NCBI GenBank assembly: GCA_025041195.1
Contig: JAKCFM010000001.1
Span: 496,001-560,000, forward strand
Length of the DNA stretch: 64,000 nt
Direction of reading: 5' to 3'
DNA from: Halobacteriales archaeon YIM A00013
Lineage (GTDB): Archaea > Halobacteriota > Halobacteria > Halobacteriales > Haloarculaceae
In this document: piece by piece, positions 12,205-63,105 of the stretch
Layout of the letters: every line of letters begins with the position of its first letter
Numbering within the stretch: the stretch's first letter is position 1
Position numbers and translations under genes: made by a program
The notes under the pieces: generated by a model
What the model was told of the DNA's origin: nothing
Seen by the model: only the letters and a program-made list of their open reading frames with translations
Database searches by the model: none

Positions 12205-12729
12205 TTAATCGCAGTTCGCTGGAGAGACCAACAGTTGGAGGATCACGGGGAGTTCCTCAGTTGACCGCGCCTCACAGAACGGAACAACAGCTTCGAGCAA
12301 ACAACTTGCAGCCGAGACAGCCTCGTCTTGCGTCTGCGCACGAGCAGGATCTTCCGGACGATCTGGAGAAAACGCCAACAGCGTTACGTCGCCGCTCCGC
12401 TGTTCATGCGCACGCAACCGAGCATCATTGTCAAACCAGGCGGTGTAGATCGTCTCGCCCTGCGAGCGAAATCGAGTAATCCGATCAAGCGACGGAAGCG
12501 CATCAGGACCCCCGCCCGAGCGCTCGCTCAGATCAGCAATCGCGAGCACCTCCTCCACCTGACGACTGTGCCGGCACTCGGTTGACTGACAGGGCCGACA
12601 CCAGCAGTTTTCCGCGATATCCACGACGTGATGCAACTCAGCAGAGGAAAGCTCTTCGCGATCCTCGATCCCTTCCAGCGTACTGACCTGCCCATCTATC
12701 GTTCGAAAGCTGAACTGTGGAAGACTCAC
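12205..12729 (-). CDS. SWIM-like zinc-binding protein, module copy 1 (ORF B)
   Basis: 174-residue acidic protein of unknown function. Residues 42-54 read CWCRPCQSTECRH, matching the SWIM zinc pattern C-x-C-x7-C-x-H. A further conserved block is RFRSQGETIYTAWF, and the C-terminus reads LLVSPANCD. The start is taken as the GTG at 12729 because in all three copies that GTG overlaps the upstream microprotein stop as GTGA and gives exactly 174 codons plus stop; the frame is open further upstream, but that stretch duplicates the microprotein in another frame. Translation is probably coupled to ORF A. SWIM domains bind DNA or protein; no enzyme motif is seen. Confidence 0.75.
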   Translation of the reverse strand: MSLPQFSFRTIDGQVSTLEGIEDREELSSAELHHVVDIAENCWCRPCQSTECRHSRQVEEVLAIADLSERSGGGPDALPSLDRITRFRSQGETIYTAWFDNDARLRAHEQRSGDVTLLAFSPDRPEDPARAQTQDEAVSAASCLLEAVVPFCEARSTEELPVILQLLVSPANCD

Positions 12730-12818
12730 GAGCCAACCCTCCACGACGGACAGCCCGTAGCATGCGCCCGTGGACGAGCCACTGGCTGGCCACAGCGAGT
12801 ACAGCTTGTGCTAGTCAT
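12726..12818 (-). CDS. 30-residue Cys/His microprotein, module copy 1 (ORF A)
   Basis: ATG at 12818 to TGA at 12726. It encodes MTSTSCTRCGQPVARPR followed by AHATGCPSW, with C6-x2-C9, H19 and C23 as a possible zinc knuckle. The same 30 codons are conserved in copies 2 and 3 with mostly silent or conservative changes, and the stop always overlaps the GTG of the zinc-protein gene. The 28 bases before the ATG are nearly invariant across copies. Confidence 0.65.
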   Translation of the reverse strand: MTSTSCTRCGQPVARPRAHATGCPSWRVGS

Positions 12819-12878
12819 TGACGATACGACAGGATTACAGTACCGCAGCGTTATTCCCTTCATGGGTTAACCTTTCCA

Positions 12879-12953
12879 GGGAATCCCAGCGTCGGGTGCT
12901 GCAACACCCGGCGCGCTTTGGTAAACGCGTTCATGCCTCGGGCTGGTATTCCC
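12879..12953 (-). ncRNA. 75-nt structured 5' leader RNA, module copy 1
   Basis: Predicted three-way junction read leftward from 12953. The closing stem GGGAAT-a-CCAGC pairs with GCTGG-g-ATTCCC. Hairpin 1 is CGCGTTT with AAA-g-CGCG. Hairpin 2 is GGGTG with CACCC. Copies 2 and 3 have GGGAAC paired with GTTCCC, a compensatory change. It starts exactly 24 bases after the TATA box, so the transcript is expected to begin on its first G. It ends 60 bases before the ORF A ATG. Confidence 0.65.
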
Positions 12954-12977: not shown

Positions 12978-13000
12978 TTATAAACTTTCGTATGTGTTGG
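12978..13000 (-). promoter_or_regulatory. Promoter of the RNA/ORF A/ORF B unit, copy 1
   Basis: On the minus strand CCAACACATACGAAAG is followed by TTTATAA (12984-12978). The same block precedes the RNA element in all three copies, always with 24 bases between TTTATAA and the first G of the RNA. Confidence 0.7.
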
Positions 13001-13308: not shown

Positions 13309-14157
13309 CTAGCCGGCTGTTCTGGTCGTGACACTCACAACGTTCGTGAGCACGCCATCCACCGCCTCCGATGTGAACTGTTCGGCCCTCTTGAGCCGGT
13401 TCGCTAGCCAGTCATCGAAGATCACCGCCTTTCCTTTGCCCGTGTGGACCACCTCCGTTCGATCACCACCGAGCCGATCAAGGAACGCCATCACCCGAGC
13501 AACCGTCTGATCGTGCGCCGATCCATACTCACGCTTGAGCTGATCTTTGATCGTGGTCGAATCCAGCCGCTTTCCTTTCGGCACTGTCGTTGCCAGTCCG
13601 CCGAGCTCCATCGCGATCATCCGTGCTCGTCGCTGGTTCGCGGTAAGCTTCGCACGGTGGAGAATCTCCTCGGGTAACCGAACGACCTGCTCCAACGGCG
13701 TCCGCTTTTCGCGTCCCTCACTGTTCTCGACCTTTCTCGCAACGGCGTCTGTGTGCGCCTCGTTCTGTTCCGTCGTCCGCTTGTTCTCGGTCACGTCCTG
13801 TCTGATCTCGGCTTTATCGCGCTCATTTGCCTCGCGGTAGTCCGTCTGCTCCCGTTCGAGCGCTTCAACTGTGGCTTCCAGTTCCGCAATTCTCGTTTTG
13901 TTCTGGTGCAACGCCGTTGTTTGGCTGTCGATCGTCGCTTGCTGGGTTTCAATTTCTGCCTGTTGAGCGTCGACCTTCGATTCCAGAGCGTTGATCTGTG
14001 CGCTCTGGCGCTCGATCTGCGCTGTCTTTTGGGCAATGGTCTCCTCTATTTCGGCTTTCCACGATCGAAACGCCTCGGGGAGAAAGCCGTCAACATCGCT
14101 GCCATCAGTAGAACTATCTGTGCTCCGTCCGTCGCTATCGTTGGGTTTGATAGTCAT
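13309..14157 (-). CDS. Coiled-coil protein with winged-helix-like C-terminus, module copy 1
   Basis: 282 residues from the ATG at 14157 (MTIKPNDSDG); an open frame extends upstream across the promoter palindromes and is not used. Residues about 35-150 form a long heptad-rich coiled coil (IEETIAQKTAQIERQ, LEATVEALEREQTDYR). The C-terminal 150 residues, including LTANQRRARMIAMELGG, TTIKDQLKREYG and RVMAFLDRLGGDR, look like a helix-turn-helix fold and are almost identical to the paralogue at 48134-48925, while the N-terminal halves differ. Probably a DNA-binding, oligomeric protein that could act on the palindromes before its own gene. Function unknown. Confidence 0.75.
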   Translation of the reverse strand: MTIKPNDSDGRSTDSSTDGSDVDGFLPEAFRSWKAEIEETIAQKTAQIERQSAQINALESKVDAQQAEIETQQATIDSQTTALHQNKTRIAELEATVEALEREQTDYREANERDKAEIRQDVTENKRTTEQNEAHTDAVARKVENSEGREKRTPLEQVVRLPEEILHRAKLTANQRRARMIAMELGGLATTVPKGKRLDSTTIKDQLKREYGSAHDQTVARVMAFLDRLGGDRTEVVHTGKGKAVIFDDWLANRLKRAEQFTSEAVDGVLTNVVSVTTRTAG

Positions 14158-14178
14158 TTTCGATCCAACCCATCCTCG

Positions 14179-14268
14179 GACGTGTTCATGCACGTCTGGG
14201 GAAACCGGGCAACCGGTTCTGTCCAGTCGAATGAGTATACATACCACATCAAAGTACCACTATTAATA
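14179..14268 (-). promoter_or_regulatory. Promoter and two palindromes before coiled-coil gene, copy 1
   Basis: On the minus strand TATTAATAGT (14268-14259) is the likely TATA region. Downstream lie the palindromes AACCGG-N4-CCGGTT (14203-14218) and GACGTG-N6-CACGTC (14179-14196). Both are kept in copy 2 with different loop bases in the second. They could be operators or 5'-UTR hairpins. Confidence 0.6.
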
Positions 14269-48133: not shown

Positions 48134-48925
48134 ATGAATCAACAACCCAACACGAACGACGACAGCAGCATAGTTAATGATACTGGAACCAGCGAAGTTC
48201 TCAGCAATCTCCTAGAGGACGGGATCGAGAAAGATGATCCCGACCAGTTGGTTGGCGTGATCAAGACGTTGGTTGGTGAACTCCAGGTTCAGTACGAAGC
48301 AAATGACGACCTGAGAACCGCCATCGAACGGCGTGATGAACGGCTTATACATCTGGAAACGACGGTTGAGCGGCTCGAACGCGAGCAAAAAGAGTACCGC
48401 GAGATGAATGAGCGCGATAAGGCCGAGATCAGACAGGACGTGACGGAAAACAAGCGGGCGACTGAACAAAACGAGGCGCACACAGACGCTGTTGCAAGAA
48501 AGGTTGCAAATTGTGACGGACGTGAGGAACGGACGCCGTTAGAACAGATCGTCCAATTACCCGATGAGATTCTCCACAAGGCGAAACTGACGGCCAATCA
48601 ACGACGAGCGCGGACGATTGCGATGGAGCTCGGCGGACTGGCGACGACAGTGCCGAAAGGAAAGCGGCTGGATTCGACCACGATCAAAGATCAGCTCAAA
48701 CGTGAGTATGGATCGGCACACGACCAGACCGTTGCCCGAGTGATGGCGTTCCTTGATCGGCTGGGTGGTGATCGAACGGAGGTGGTCCACACGGGCAAGG
48801 GCAAAGCAGTGATCTTCGATGACTGGCTAGCGAACCGGCTCAAGAGGGCCGAACAGTTCACATCGGAGGCGGTGGATGGCGTGCTCACGAACGTTGTGAG
48901 TGTCACCACCAGAACGGCCGGCTAG
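48134..48925 (+). CDS. Coiled-coil protein with winged-helix-like C-terminus, module copy 2
   Basis: 263 residues starting MNQQPNTNDDSSIVND. Coiled coil about 50-145 (LRTAIERRDERLIHLETTV, ERLEREQKEYREMNERDKAE). From TPLEQIVQLPDEILHKAKL to the end it is nearly identical to copy 1, including SVTTRTAG at the C-terminus; the N-terminal 100 residues differ. A near-identical nucleotide stretch downstream implies recent gene conversion. Function unknown; likely DNA-binding. Confidence 0.75.
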   Translation: MNQQPNTNDDSSIVNDTGTSEVLSNLLEDGIEKDDPDQLVGVIKTLVGELQVQYEANDDLRTAIERRDERLIHLETTVERLEREQKEYREMNERDKAEIRQDVTENKRATEQNEAHTDAVARKVANCDGREERTPLEQIVQLPDEILHKAKLTANQRRARTIAMELGGLATTVPKGKRLDSTTIKDQLKREYGSAHDQTVARVMAFLDRLGGDRTEVVHTGKGKAVIFDDWLANRLKRAEQFTSEAVDGVLTNVVSVTTRTAG

Positions 48926-49240: not shown

Positions 49241-49280
49241 ATACGAAAGTTTATAACCTAGTGGGTTGGCACAACCAACT
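49234..49280 (+). promoter_or_regulatory. Promoter of the RNA/ORF A/ORF B unit, copy 2
   Basis: CCAACACATACGAAAG followed by TTTATAA (49250-49256); the first base of the RNA element is 49281, exactly 24 bases after the TATA box. Confidence 0.7.
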
Positions 49281-49355
49281 GGGAACGCCAGCCGGAATGA
49301 TTTGCGCGTGTACTGAAACGCGCCGGGTGTTGGAGCACCCGACGCTGGGGTTCCC
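49281..49355 (+). ncRNA. 75-nt structured 5' leader RNA, module copy 2
   Basis: Closing stem GGGAAC-g-CCAGC (49281-49292) with GCTGG-g-GTTCCC (49344-49355). Hairpin 1 is GCGCGT with ACGCGC. Hairpin 2 is GGGTG with CACCC. The pairing pattern and the 75-nt length are shared with copies 1 and 3. ORF A begins 63 bases after it. Confidence 0.65.
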
Positions 49356-49418
49356 TAACCGAGAGGTGAACCCAATATGGGAATAACGCCGCGGTACTGT
49401 AATCCTGTCGTATCGTCA

Positions 49419-49511
49419 ATGACTACCACGCGGTGTGCACGCTGTGGTCAACCGGTTGCTCGGCCACGCGCACATGCAACGGGCTGTCCGTCGTGGAGGA
49501 TTGGCTCGTGA
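49419..49511 (+). CDS. 30-residue Cys/His microprotein, module copy 2 (ORF A)
   Basis: MTTTRCARCGQPVARPR then AHATGCPSWRIGS. C6, C9, H19 and C23 align with copies 1 and 3. Its TGA overlaps the next GTG by four bases (GTGA). Confidence 0.65.
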   Translation: MTTTRCARCGQPVARPRAHATGCPSWRIGS

Positions 49512-50032
49512 GTCTTCCCCAGTTCAGCTTCCGAACGATGGATGGACAGATCAGCACCCTTGCGGGAATCGAGGATCGCGAGGAACTCTCCTCTGCTGAG
49601 TTACACCACGTCGTGGATATCGCCGAGAACTGTTGGTGTCGTCCCTGTCAATCAACGGAATGTCGGCACAGTCGGCAAGTGGAGGAGGTGCTCGCGATTG
49701 CTGATCTGAGCGAGCGCTCGGGCGGGGGTCCTGATACGCTTCCGTCGCTTGATCGGATTACTCGGTTTCGCTCGCAGGGCGAGACCATCTACACCGCCTG
49801 GTTCGAAAACGATGCTCGGCTTCGTGCACATGAGCAACGGAGTGGTGACGTTACTTTGTTGGCGTTTTCTCCCGATCGTCCGGAGGATCCAGCGCGTGCA
49901 CAGACGCAAGACGAGGCTGTGTCTGCCGCGAGTTGTTTACTCGATGGAGTCGTGAAGTTCTGCGACGCACGATCAACCAAGGAACTCCCTGCGCTGCTTA
50001 AGCTGTTGGTCTCTCCAGCACACGACGACTAA
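49508..50032 (+). CDS. SWIM-like zinc-binding protein, module copy 2 (ORF B)
   Basis: 174 residues, GTG start at 49508 as in the other copies. CWCRPCQSTECRH at 42-54 matches C-x-C-x7-C-x-H. The C-terminus reads VVKFCDARSTKELPALLKLL then VSPAHDD, closer to its own downstream tail duplicate than to copies 1 or 3, which points to local gene conversion or an independent duplication. Confidence 0.75.
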   Translation: MSLPQFSFRTMDGQISTLAGIEDREELSSAELHHVVDIAENCWCRPCQSTECRHSRQVEEVLAIADLSERSGGGPDTLPSLDRITRFRSQGETIYTAWFENDARLRAHEQRSGDVTLLAFSPDRPEDPARAQTQDEAVSAASCLLDGVVKFCDARSTKELPALLKLLVSPAHDD

Positions 50033-50239: not shown

Positions 50240-50359
50240 GAGGCTGACTCTGCTGCGAGCTGTTTGCTCAATGGGGTCGTCAAGTTCTGTGACGCACGAT
50301 CAACCGAGGAGCTCCCTGCACTTCTCCAACTGTTGGTCTCTCCAGCACACGACGAGTAA
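50240..50359 (+). pseudogene. Duplicated 3' tail of zinc-protein gene (copy 2)
   Basis: Encodes ADSAASCLLNGVVKFCDA then RSTEELPALLQLLVSPAHDE and a stop, about 39 codons matching the end of ORF B of the same copy. No start codon. Confidence 0.75.
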
Positions 50360-62091: not shown

Positions 62092-62138
62092 CCAACACAT
62101 ACGAAAGTTTATAACGAAAGCGAAATGCACAGAGAGTA
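62092..62138 (+). promoter_or_regulatory. Promoter of the RNA/ORF A/ORF B unit, copy 3
   Basis: CCAACACATACGAAAG and TTTATAA (62108-62114), 24 bases before the RNA element. The region before it no longer matches copies 1 and 2, so copy 3 lacks a coiled-coil gene upstream. Confidence 0.7.
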
Positions 62139-62213
62139 GGGAACGCCAGTCCGCGCGATTGTGCGTGGCGGAAATCGCGCCAGGTGTTGAAGCCACCTGA
62201 CGCTGGGGTTCCC
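62139..62213 (+). ncRNA. 75-nt structured 5' leader RNA, module copy 3
   Basis: Stem GGGAAC-g-CCAGT with GCTGG-g-GTTCCC (a G·U wobble at one end). Hairpin 1 is GCGCGATT with AATCGCGC, the longest of the three. Hairpin 2 is CAGGTG with CACCTG, in which one G-C pair of copies 1 and 2 is A-T here. Confidence 0.65.
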
Positions 62214-62273
62214 ATGGGTAGGTTACCCATGAAAAGCAACGCACTGCGGTACTGTAATCCTGTCGTATCGTCA

Positions 62274-62366
62274 ATGACTACCACGCGGTGTGCCCGCTGT
62301 GGACAGCCGGTAGCTCGTCCGCGCGCACACGCAACTGGCTGTCCGTCGTGGAGGGTCGGCTCGTGA
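62274..62366 (+). CDS. 30-residue Cys/His microprotein, module copy 3 (ORF A)
   Basis: MTTTRCARCGQPVARPR then AHATGCPSWRVGS. Same C6, C9, H19 and C23. The TGA overlaps the next GTG (GTGA). Confidence 0.65.
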   Translation: MTTTRCARCGQPVARPRAHATGCPSWRVGS

Positions 62367-62887
62367 GTCTCCCACAGTTCAGCTTCCGAACGGTAGACGG
62401 CCAGGTCAGCACACTTGATGGAATCGAGGATCGCGAGGAACTCTCTTCAGCTGAACTCCACCACGTGGTGGACATCGCCGAGAACTGTTGGTGTCGGCCC
62501 TGTCAATCAACGGAGTGTAGACACAGCCGCCAGGTTGAGGAGGTGCTGGCTATTGCTGATCTGAGCGAGCGTTCGGGCGGTGGGGTTGATGAACTTCCGT
62601 CGCTCGATCGGATTACTCGGTTTCGCTCGCAGGGCGAGACGATCTACACCGCCTGGTTCGAAAACGATGCCCGGCTTCGGGCGCATGAGCAACGGAGCGG
62701 GGATGTTACGCTGTTGGCGTTCTCACCTGATCGTCCGGAGGATCCTGCACGGGCGCAGACGCAGGACGAGGCAGTGTCTGCCGCGAGCTGTTTGCTAGAG
62801 GCTGTGGTTCCGTTCTGTGAGGCCCGATCGACCGATGAATTGCCTGTGATTCTCCAGTTGTTGGTCTCTCCAGCGCACTGCGAGTAA
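62363..62887 (+). CDS. SWIM-like zinc-binding protein, module copy 3 (ORF B)
   Basis: 174 residues from the GTG at 62363. CWCRPCQSTECRH at 42-54; QVEEVLAIADLSERSGGGVD, then RSQGETIYTAWFENDARL; ends VILQLLVSPAHCE. Complete and equal in length to the other copies, but without an adjacent full coiled-coil gene. Confidence 0.75.
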   Translation: MSLPQFSFRTVDGQVSTLDGIEDREELSSAELHHVVDIAENCWCRPCQSTECRHSRQVEEVLAIADLSERSGGGVDELPSLDRITRFRSQGETIYTAWFENDARLRAHEQRSGDVTLLAFSPDRPEDPARAQTQDEAVSAASCLLEAVVPFCEARSTDELPVILQLLVSPAHCE

Positions 62888-63015: not shown

Positions 63016-63105
63016 TTGGGCAGTGGTTCCGTTCTGTGAAGCACGATCAATCGAGGAGTTGCCGTGATTCTCCAGTTGTTGGTCTCTCCAGCGCACTGCG
63101 AGTAA
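63016..63105 (+). pseudogene. Duplicated 3' tail of zinc-protein gene (copy 3)
   Basis: AVVPFCEARSIEELP, then one base is lost relative to ORF B so the frame shifts to a stop; the sequence still ends in the ORF B-like GCGCACTGCGAGTAA. Confidence 0.7.

Follow-up and report, generated by a model that had tools for sequence, protein, structure and literature searches.

A promoter-anchored leader RNA family ahead of small zinc-finger genes in Halobacteriales, and its candidate role as a translational switch

Many haloarchaeal genes for small zinc-finger proteins are preceded by a structured leader RNA with its first base at the predicted transcription start, covariation throughout its closing stem and a stem strand complementary to the bases just ahead of the start codon. 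From these sequence patterns, we consider the leader to be probably a cis-acting translational switch for the genes that follow it. We describe the RNA from three copies in a window of 64,000 nt, the whole stretch of DNA that was analysed, and follow it through the source genome (from a Halocatena that is sister to strain YIM 93972) and across the haloarchaea.

A promoter-anchored RNA family

The three window copies are each 75 nt long and start 24 bases past the sequence TTTATAA, as the original prediction had proposed. The copy at 49281..49355 on the plus strand (copy 2, a covariance model match of 77 bits) follows its TATA box at 49250..49256 and precedes an open reading frame (ORF) for a 44-aa zinc-finger micro-protein (CARCG...HATGC; 49377..49511), whose stop overlaps the start of ORF B (49508..50032) within GTGA. 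On the minus strand, copy 1 has its TATA box at 12978..12984, its RNA at 12879..12953, a 45-aa zinc-finger ORF at 12726..12863 and ORF B at 12205..12729. On the plus strand, copy 3 has the same order, with its TATA box at 62108..62114, its RNA at 62139..62213, a 45-aa zinc-finger ORF at 62229..62366 (a further in-frame ATG lies at 62214) and ORF B at 62363..62887. The zinc-finger ORF of copy 2 starts 3 nt later than the others; at 49374-49379, AAT replaces their ATG and an in-frame ATG follows three bases on. In copies 2 and 3, the 3′ end of ORF B recurs behind the gene as a degenerate direct repeat (50240-50359 and 63019-63105), with T/A-rich hairpin sequence in between (ggccttttttgg...gtggttgccgaaggcaacccga...aaaaaagg).

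The genome-wide covariance model search that had been suggested found 23 copies in the source genome, far above the three in the window, and a DNA search found 19. Eleven of these 19 copies, including the three in the window, belong to subtype A (closing stem GGGAAC/GTTCCC) and eight to subtype B (GAGGAC/GTCCTC or GAGAGC/GCTCTC); both subtypes begin 24 bases past a TATA box. The exact length of 75 nt holds for the window copies and not for the family, whose members measure 75–84 nt in this genome and mostly 63–88 nt overall (one has 57 nt).

Model R1, built from the 19 copies, had matches in all genomes searched within the genus (23, 20, 2, 15, 13, 35 and 2 copies), and most of its weak matches outside the genus proved on inspection to be real, with the TATA spacing, the same fold and a zinc-finger gene downstream. 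YIM 93972 bears the name 'Actinarchaeum halophilum', which taxonomy resolves to Halocatena. Members of its genus make hyphae and spores (PMC10067837), and the leader is present beyond that genus, Haladaptatus being among the groups that carry it. At E ≤ 0.01, model R2 (55 sequences) matched 138 of 392 Halobacteriales genomes and gave no match in 85 genomes from the phylum's other classes. Model R3 (100 sequences), with matches limited to 12 per genome, matched 173 of the 392 at E ≤ 0.001, corresponding to 57 of 95 genera; E-values are rough owing to short calibration, and a few weak genome matches may be chance. Copy number reaches 35 per genome, with 28 in one genome outside the genus, and the most copy-rich group is probably the Natrialbaceae, judging by weak protein matches to Natrinema plasmids. 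All counts were taken over related sequences; they include two doubtful loci with no TATA box (L106 and L117), and two covariance model matches (L048 and L115) were dropped as GC-rich sequence lacking the TATA and leader context. In one draft genome (G004), many contigs, among them C2, C8, C9, C25, C49, C56, C59 and C60, break off at most a few hundred bases from the element, a pattern to be expected where a dispersed repeat disrupts the assembly. No relatives were found in viral contigs or phages, and a viral origin was rejected on that ground.

In 169 of 199 loci, a TATA-like hexamer starts between −34 and −27, compared to at most six in any other 8-base bin. The RNA is thus predicted to begin at the expected archaeal +1, which lends strong support to the proposed anchoring at a transcription start. 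The 3′ end of the RNA mostly lies 12–28 nt ahead of the ATG and the median leader length is 96 nt, with start codons picked by rule. The RNA therefore holds the fixed, same-strand place between promoter and gene that is expected of a leader. A Shine-Dalgarno-like 4-mer is present in only 44 of 193 leaders, in agreement with work on Haloferax volcanii, which does not use the Shine-Dalgarno mechanism (PMC3986360).

Structure and covariation of the RNA

In copy 2, the closing stem pairs 49281-49286 with 49350-49355 and 49288-49292 with 49344-49348, and two hairpins are formed by 49304-49309/49318-49323 and 49324-49330/49335-49341. The differences among copies that had suggested selection on RNA structure are all present in the sequence: copy 1 changes the closing stem from GGGAAC/GTTCCC to GGGAAT/ATTCCC, copy 3 turns an inner closing-stem C-G pair into a U·G wobble and the hairpin CGGGTG/CACCCG into CAGGTG/CACCTG, and the first hairpin differs in sequence among the three copies while pairing with itself in each. 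Their folding energies lie far under those of dinucleotide shuffles (z-scores of −5.4, −3.8 and −3.5).

The proposed covariation test was carried out on larger alignments, where double-sided changes far exceeded both shuffled and slid controls. In alignment A5, double-sided changes occur at 20 of 27 pairs (149 cells, compared to 43.8±7.9 when shuffled). In alignment A6, which holds 100 loci mostly held out from model training, there are 512 double-sided changes compared to 190.9±13.2 when shuffled, and at most 90 when the partner is slid by 1–3 columns. A further 100-sequence test yielded 473 compared to 157±11; over all tests, the slid controls reach at most 101, and covariation extends to each of the 11 closing-stem pairs. 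Because the alignments were fitted to the model, they are biased towards structure; the slid and shuffled controls together with the number of different pair types make this bias an insufficient explanation. Chance is excluded by the controlled 100-sequence tests and by the RNA's absence outside Halobacteria. The data strongly supports selection on RNA structure, and the conserved structure with compensatory changes is that of a leader RNA.

Across the family, the hairpin CGGGUG/CACCCG is nearly invariant, while the other hairpin has a loop with a conserved GAA(A) on its 3′ side. In the wider alignments, just 55–59% of cells are paired in the first hairpin, which is thus an optional arm. Consequently, the three-way junction described at first stands as the core of the structure, and many members add the optional hairpin to form a four-way junction.

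There are 126 G·U pairs and only 49 A·C mismatches, an excess that fits an RNA read from the same strand. This excess and the compensatory pairs speak against a DNA element, such as an operator, a cruciform or the end of a mobile element, as does the strand-specific position after the TATA box and before the ORF. The many dispersed copies would suit such an element, and so would the perfect dyads that a few loci have between TATA box and RNA start (L065, L093, L094 and L056; 7–12 bp, with a different sequence in each), which are possibly diverged operators. Across loci, a dyad at this place was rejected as a general operator: stems average 3.71 compared to 3.37 when shuffled, and an upstream control region is likewise raised (3.53 compared to 3.26), so the signal is not specific. 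We regard a DNA element as barely credible.

Genes behind the leader

The ORF that follows the leader has a zinc-binding Cys/His pattern in 162 of 199 loci, compared to 6 of 199 in the antisense control. Among ten downstream products tested, five match the Pfam SWIM family (PF04434), two of them above the cut-off, and SWIM fingers are annotated as such in Haladaptatus. CPxCG-type micro-proteins also occur, and in Halocatena the product is a 45-aa finger with a clear coding signal (third-position share of 0.59) that translationally overlaps ORF B. In many loci, the leader thus precedes members of the SWIM family or haloarchaeal zinc-finger micro-proteins. Several loci outside the 162 encode decayed or shortened zinc-finger relatives. 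Two leaders (L110 and L207) precede a 109-aa protein that has no zinc-binding pattern, so not every target is a zinc finger.

The two other proteins encoded near window copies had been put forward as possible binders of the RNA. ORF A, a coiled-coil protein whose C-terminal part is conserved (48134-48925, plus strand; 13309-14247, minus strand), lies upstream of some subtype A copies and downstream of others. Because it adjoins only some copies of that subtype, binding by ORF A is not supported as a general mechanism. Binding by ORF B fares no better, as its relatives are confined to its own genus in one genome scan while the RNA is order-wide. ORF B carries an invariant WCRxC-x4-CxH pattern, has no Pfam match and no PDB match below E 0.01, and its structure model (pLDDT 79) gave no informative match in a fold search; a SWIM assignment was rejected as it lacks a PF04434 match and its pattern is not CxC-xn-CxH. 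In some of the YIM 93972 copies at L035-L038, ORF B seems shortened or broken behind intact leader RNAs. A defence-system search returned weak matches only, and that reading was rejected.

The loci with a GGCTTCC-type stem (L046, L064, L069-L091 and L119-L178) carry an extra hairpin right after the first ATG, either CGAGAC-AUAAAC-GUCUCG or CGGGA-UAUAAACG-UCCCG, where the ORF reads MxxxILPRHKRLAR. This basic sequence was rejected as a leader peptide: differences are flat over the codon positions (0.32/0.33/0.35) and the DNA forms a hairpin instead. With no coding signal in the first ORF, the start codon assigned at these loci is doubtful.

Ribosomal-protein leaders are bound by the product of their own operon, which represses translation, and each zinc-finger product could act on its own leader in the same way. 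Most loci do place the RNA beside a small, Cys-rich and possibly nucleic-acid-binding protein, and the invariant hairpin resembles a recognition site. Yet the products vary widely (SWIM, CPxCG, the Halocatena finger and a protein with no such pattern) while the RNA core stays constant, and up to 35 copies in a genome would all cross-react. The leader's genes are also not ribosomal, its copy number differs from that of ribosomal-protein leaders, and a comparison with the genome's 23S rRNA locus gave no significant resemblance (best E-value of 0.23). Autogenous control is unlikely. The same core ahead of different genes argues instead for a common signal.

Two competing pairings and their likely use

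In loci from several genera, the bases directly ahead of the AUG complement the closing stem's 3′ strand, and the sequences involved differ from locus to locus. Examples of 3′ strand and pre-AUG segment include GGTTGTC/GACAACC, GGTCTTC/GAAGACC, GGTCTGT/ACAGACC, GGCTGT/ACAGCC, GCTGTTTC/GAAACAGC, GGGTTTC/GAAACCC and GGCTTTC/GAAAGCC. In copy 2, the segment GAACCC (49368..49373) complements GGGTTC of the 3′ strand (49348-49353) to give an alternative hairpin. We took one locus for each of 44 distinct 3′ strands, determined the longest Watson-Crick run and re-dealt the pre-AUG segments among loci. The mean run is 5.27 bp, compared to 3.70±0.15 when re-dealt (0 of 2000 permutations), and two control stretches, the ten bases that follow the AUG and bases further upstream, average 3.3. 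Without the GGCTTCC-type loci, the mean is 5.50 compared to 3.79±0.18; without these and Halocatena (30 stems), it is 5.86 compared to 3.96±0.20 (0 of 4000). The pairing is weak (3–4 bp) in Halocatena subtype B, in window copies 1 and 3 and in many GGCTTCC-type loci.

The 3′ strand thus has two mutually exclusive partners, as in the expression platform of a translational riboswitch; both predicted pairings leave covariation, and they cannot coexist. In most full leaders, the predicted fold contains the closing stem, which is the first to form and usually the more stable of the two states. When the outer 5′ strand is trimmed in folding, the 3′ strand shifts onto the pre-AUG bases. Forcing the alternative fold costs a median of 4.4 kcal/mol above the minimum (range 0–16; 149 loci with a run of at least 4; standard conditions rather than molar KCl), and 11–13 kcal/mol in window copies 2 and 3, where switching would therefore need an active trigger.

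A constitutive role would account for part of this: a stem at +1 could protect the 5′ end of the mRNA, or expose the start region, without any regulation. In its favour, the first base of the stem coincides with the predicted +1, and the fold with the stem is in most cases the most stable one. Such a stabilizer would leave unexplained both the invariant inner hairpin and the covarying complement ahead of the AUG, and we consider it improbable.

The original prediction had left the choice between a regulatory leader and a small RNA. The leader role is now strongly supported, and a small RNA of about 75 nt that is set free from the leader and acts in trans is very improbable, even with a compact, autonomous fold and a 3′ strand that reads as antisense to the segments ahead of the AUG. 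In all 193 loci, the first 30 nt behind the RNA lack a T-run terminator, the distance to the ORF is short and nearly constant, and the permutations show that the complementarity covaries with the bases ahead of the gene in cis and not with the genes of other loci.

For a translational switch, we propose the following mechanism. Transcription would begin at the first base of the closing stem, as predicted from the TATA spacing, and the RNA would fold into its three-way or sometimes four-way junction with a long closing stem, the GAA(A)-loop hairpin and the near-invariant CGGGUG/CACCCG hairpin. While the closing stem is formed, the pre-AUG bases would be mostly free and the zinc-finger gene translated. 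Opening or displacement of the stem, or loss of its 5′ strand, could free the 3′ strand to pair instead with the bases just ahead of the AUG, occluding the initiation region and lowering translation. The balance between the pre-AUG hairpin and the closing stem would be shifted by a trans-acting factor or ligand. A common one is probable, since different genes and genera have the same core, and it could act through this invariant core to set the choice for all copies in a cell. More tentatively, and as a reading that we hold to be less likely than not, a single signal might control as many as 35 zinc-finger genes per cell at the level of translation. The common RNA domain would sense this signal, either as a riboswitch of haloarchaea or as the binding site of one master protein, and would act by strand exchange next to the AUG, in organisms that largely do without Shine-Dalgarno pairing.

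The leader resembles translational riboswitches in its multibranch domain, in the second partner of its closing-stem 3′ strand beside the start codon and in its location in cis within the 5′ UTR. It differs in an unusually long closing stem and in having no clear masking of a ribosome binding site, given the few Shine-Dalgarno-like 4-mers, and its genes do not single out any one metabolite. According to PMC8241225, the fluoride riboswitch of Thermococcus kodakarensis is the one natural riboswitch of archaea to have been established by experiment. A synthetic theophylline riboswitch that masks the AUG works in Haloferax volcanii, and better at higher salt (PMC8241225); it likewise masks the start region in a haloarchaeon, and is engineered whereas the leader is natural. 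The S15-Halobacteria RNA (RF03143) is also a structured haloarchaeal 5′ leader ahead of a gene for a small protein, but it is a different RNA, matched in one locus elsewhere and not on the leader.

Rfam 15 has no match in the window at gathering score and none on the RNA in 19 loci at E-values up to 1. The Haladaptatus record NZ_CP111042.1, as a table of protein genes only, holds no annotation of the leader. PMC2864571 does not mention haloarchaea. We found no description in the open-access literature, a comparison that did not extend to a 2017 survey of 224 candidate RNAs and leaves a report in closed literature possible. The family, its copy number, its gene association and the AUG-adjacent strand exchange appear to be new, while the kind of element, a cis-regulatory leader, is familiar.

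To our knowledge, natural regulatory RNAs are almost unknown in haloarchaea. Here is a family that is common among the genera sampled, uncatalogued and tied to small zinc-finger proteins. It makes control of translation by RNA structure testable where Shine-Dalgarno pairing is not used, and the leader itself gives a handle on which genes belong to the regulon.
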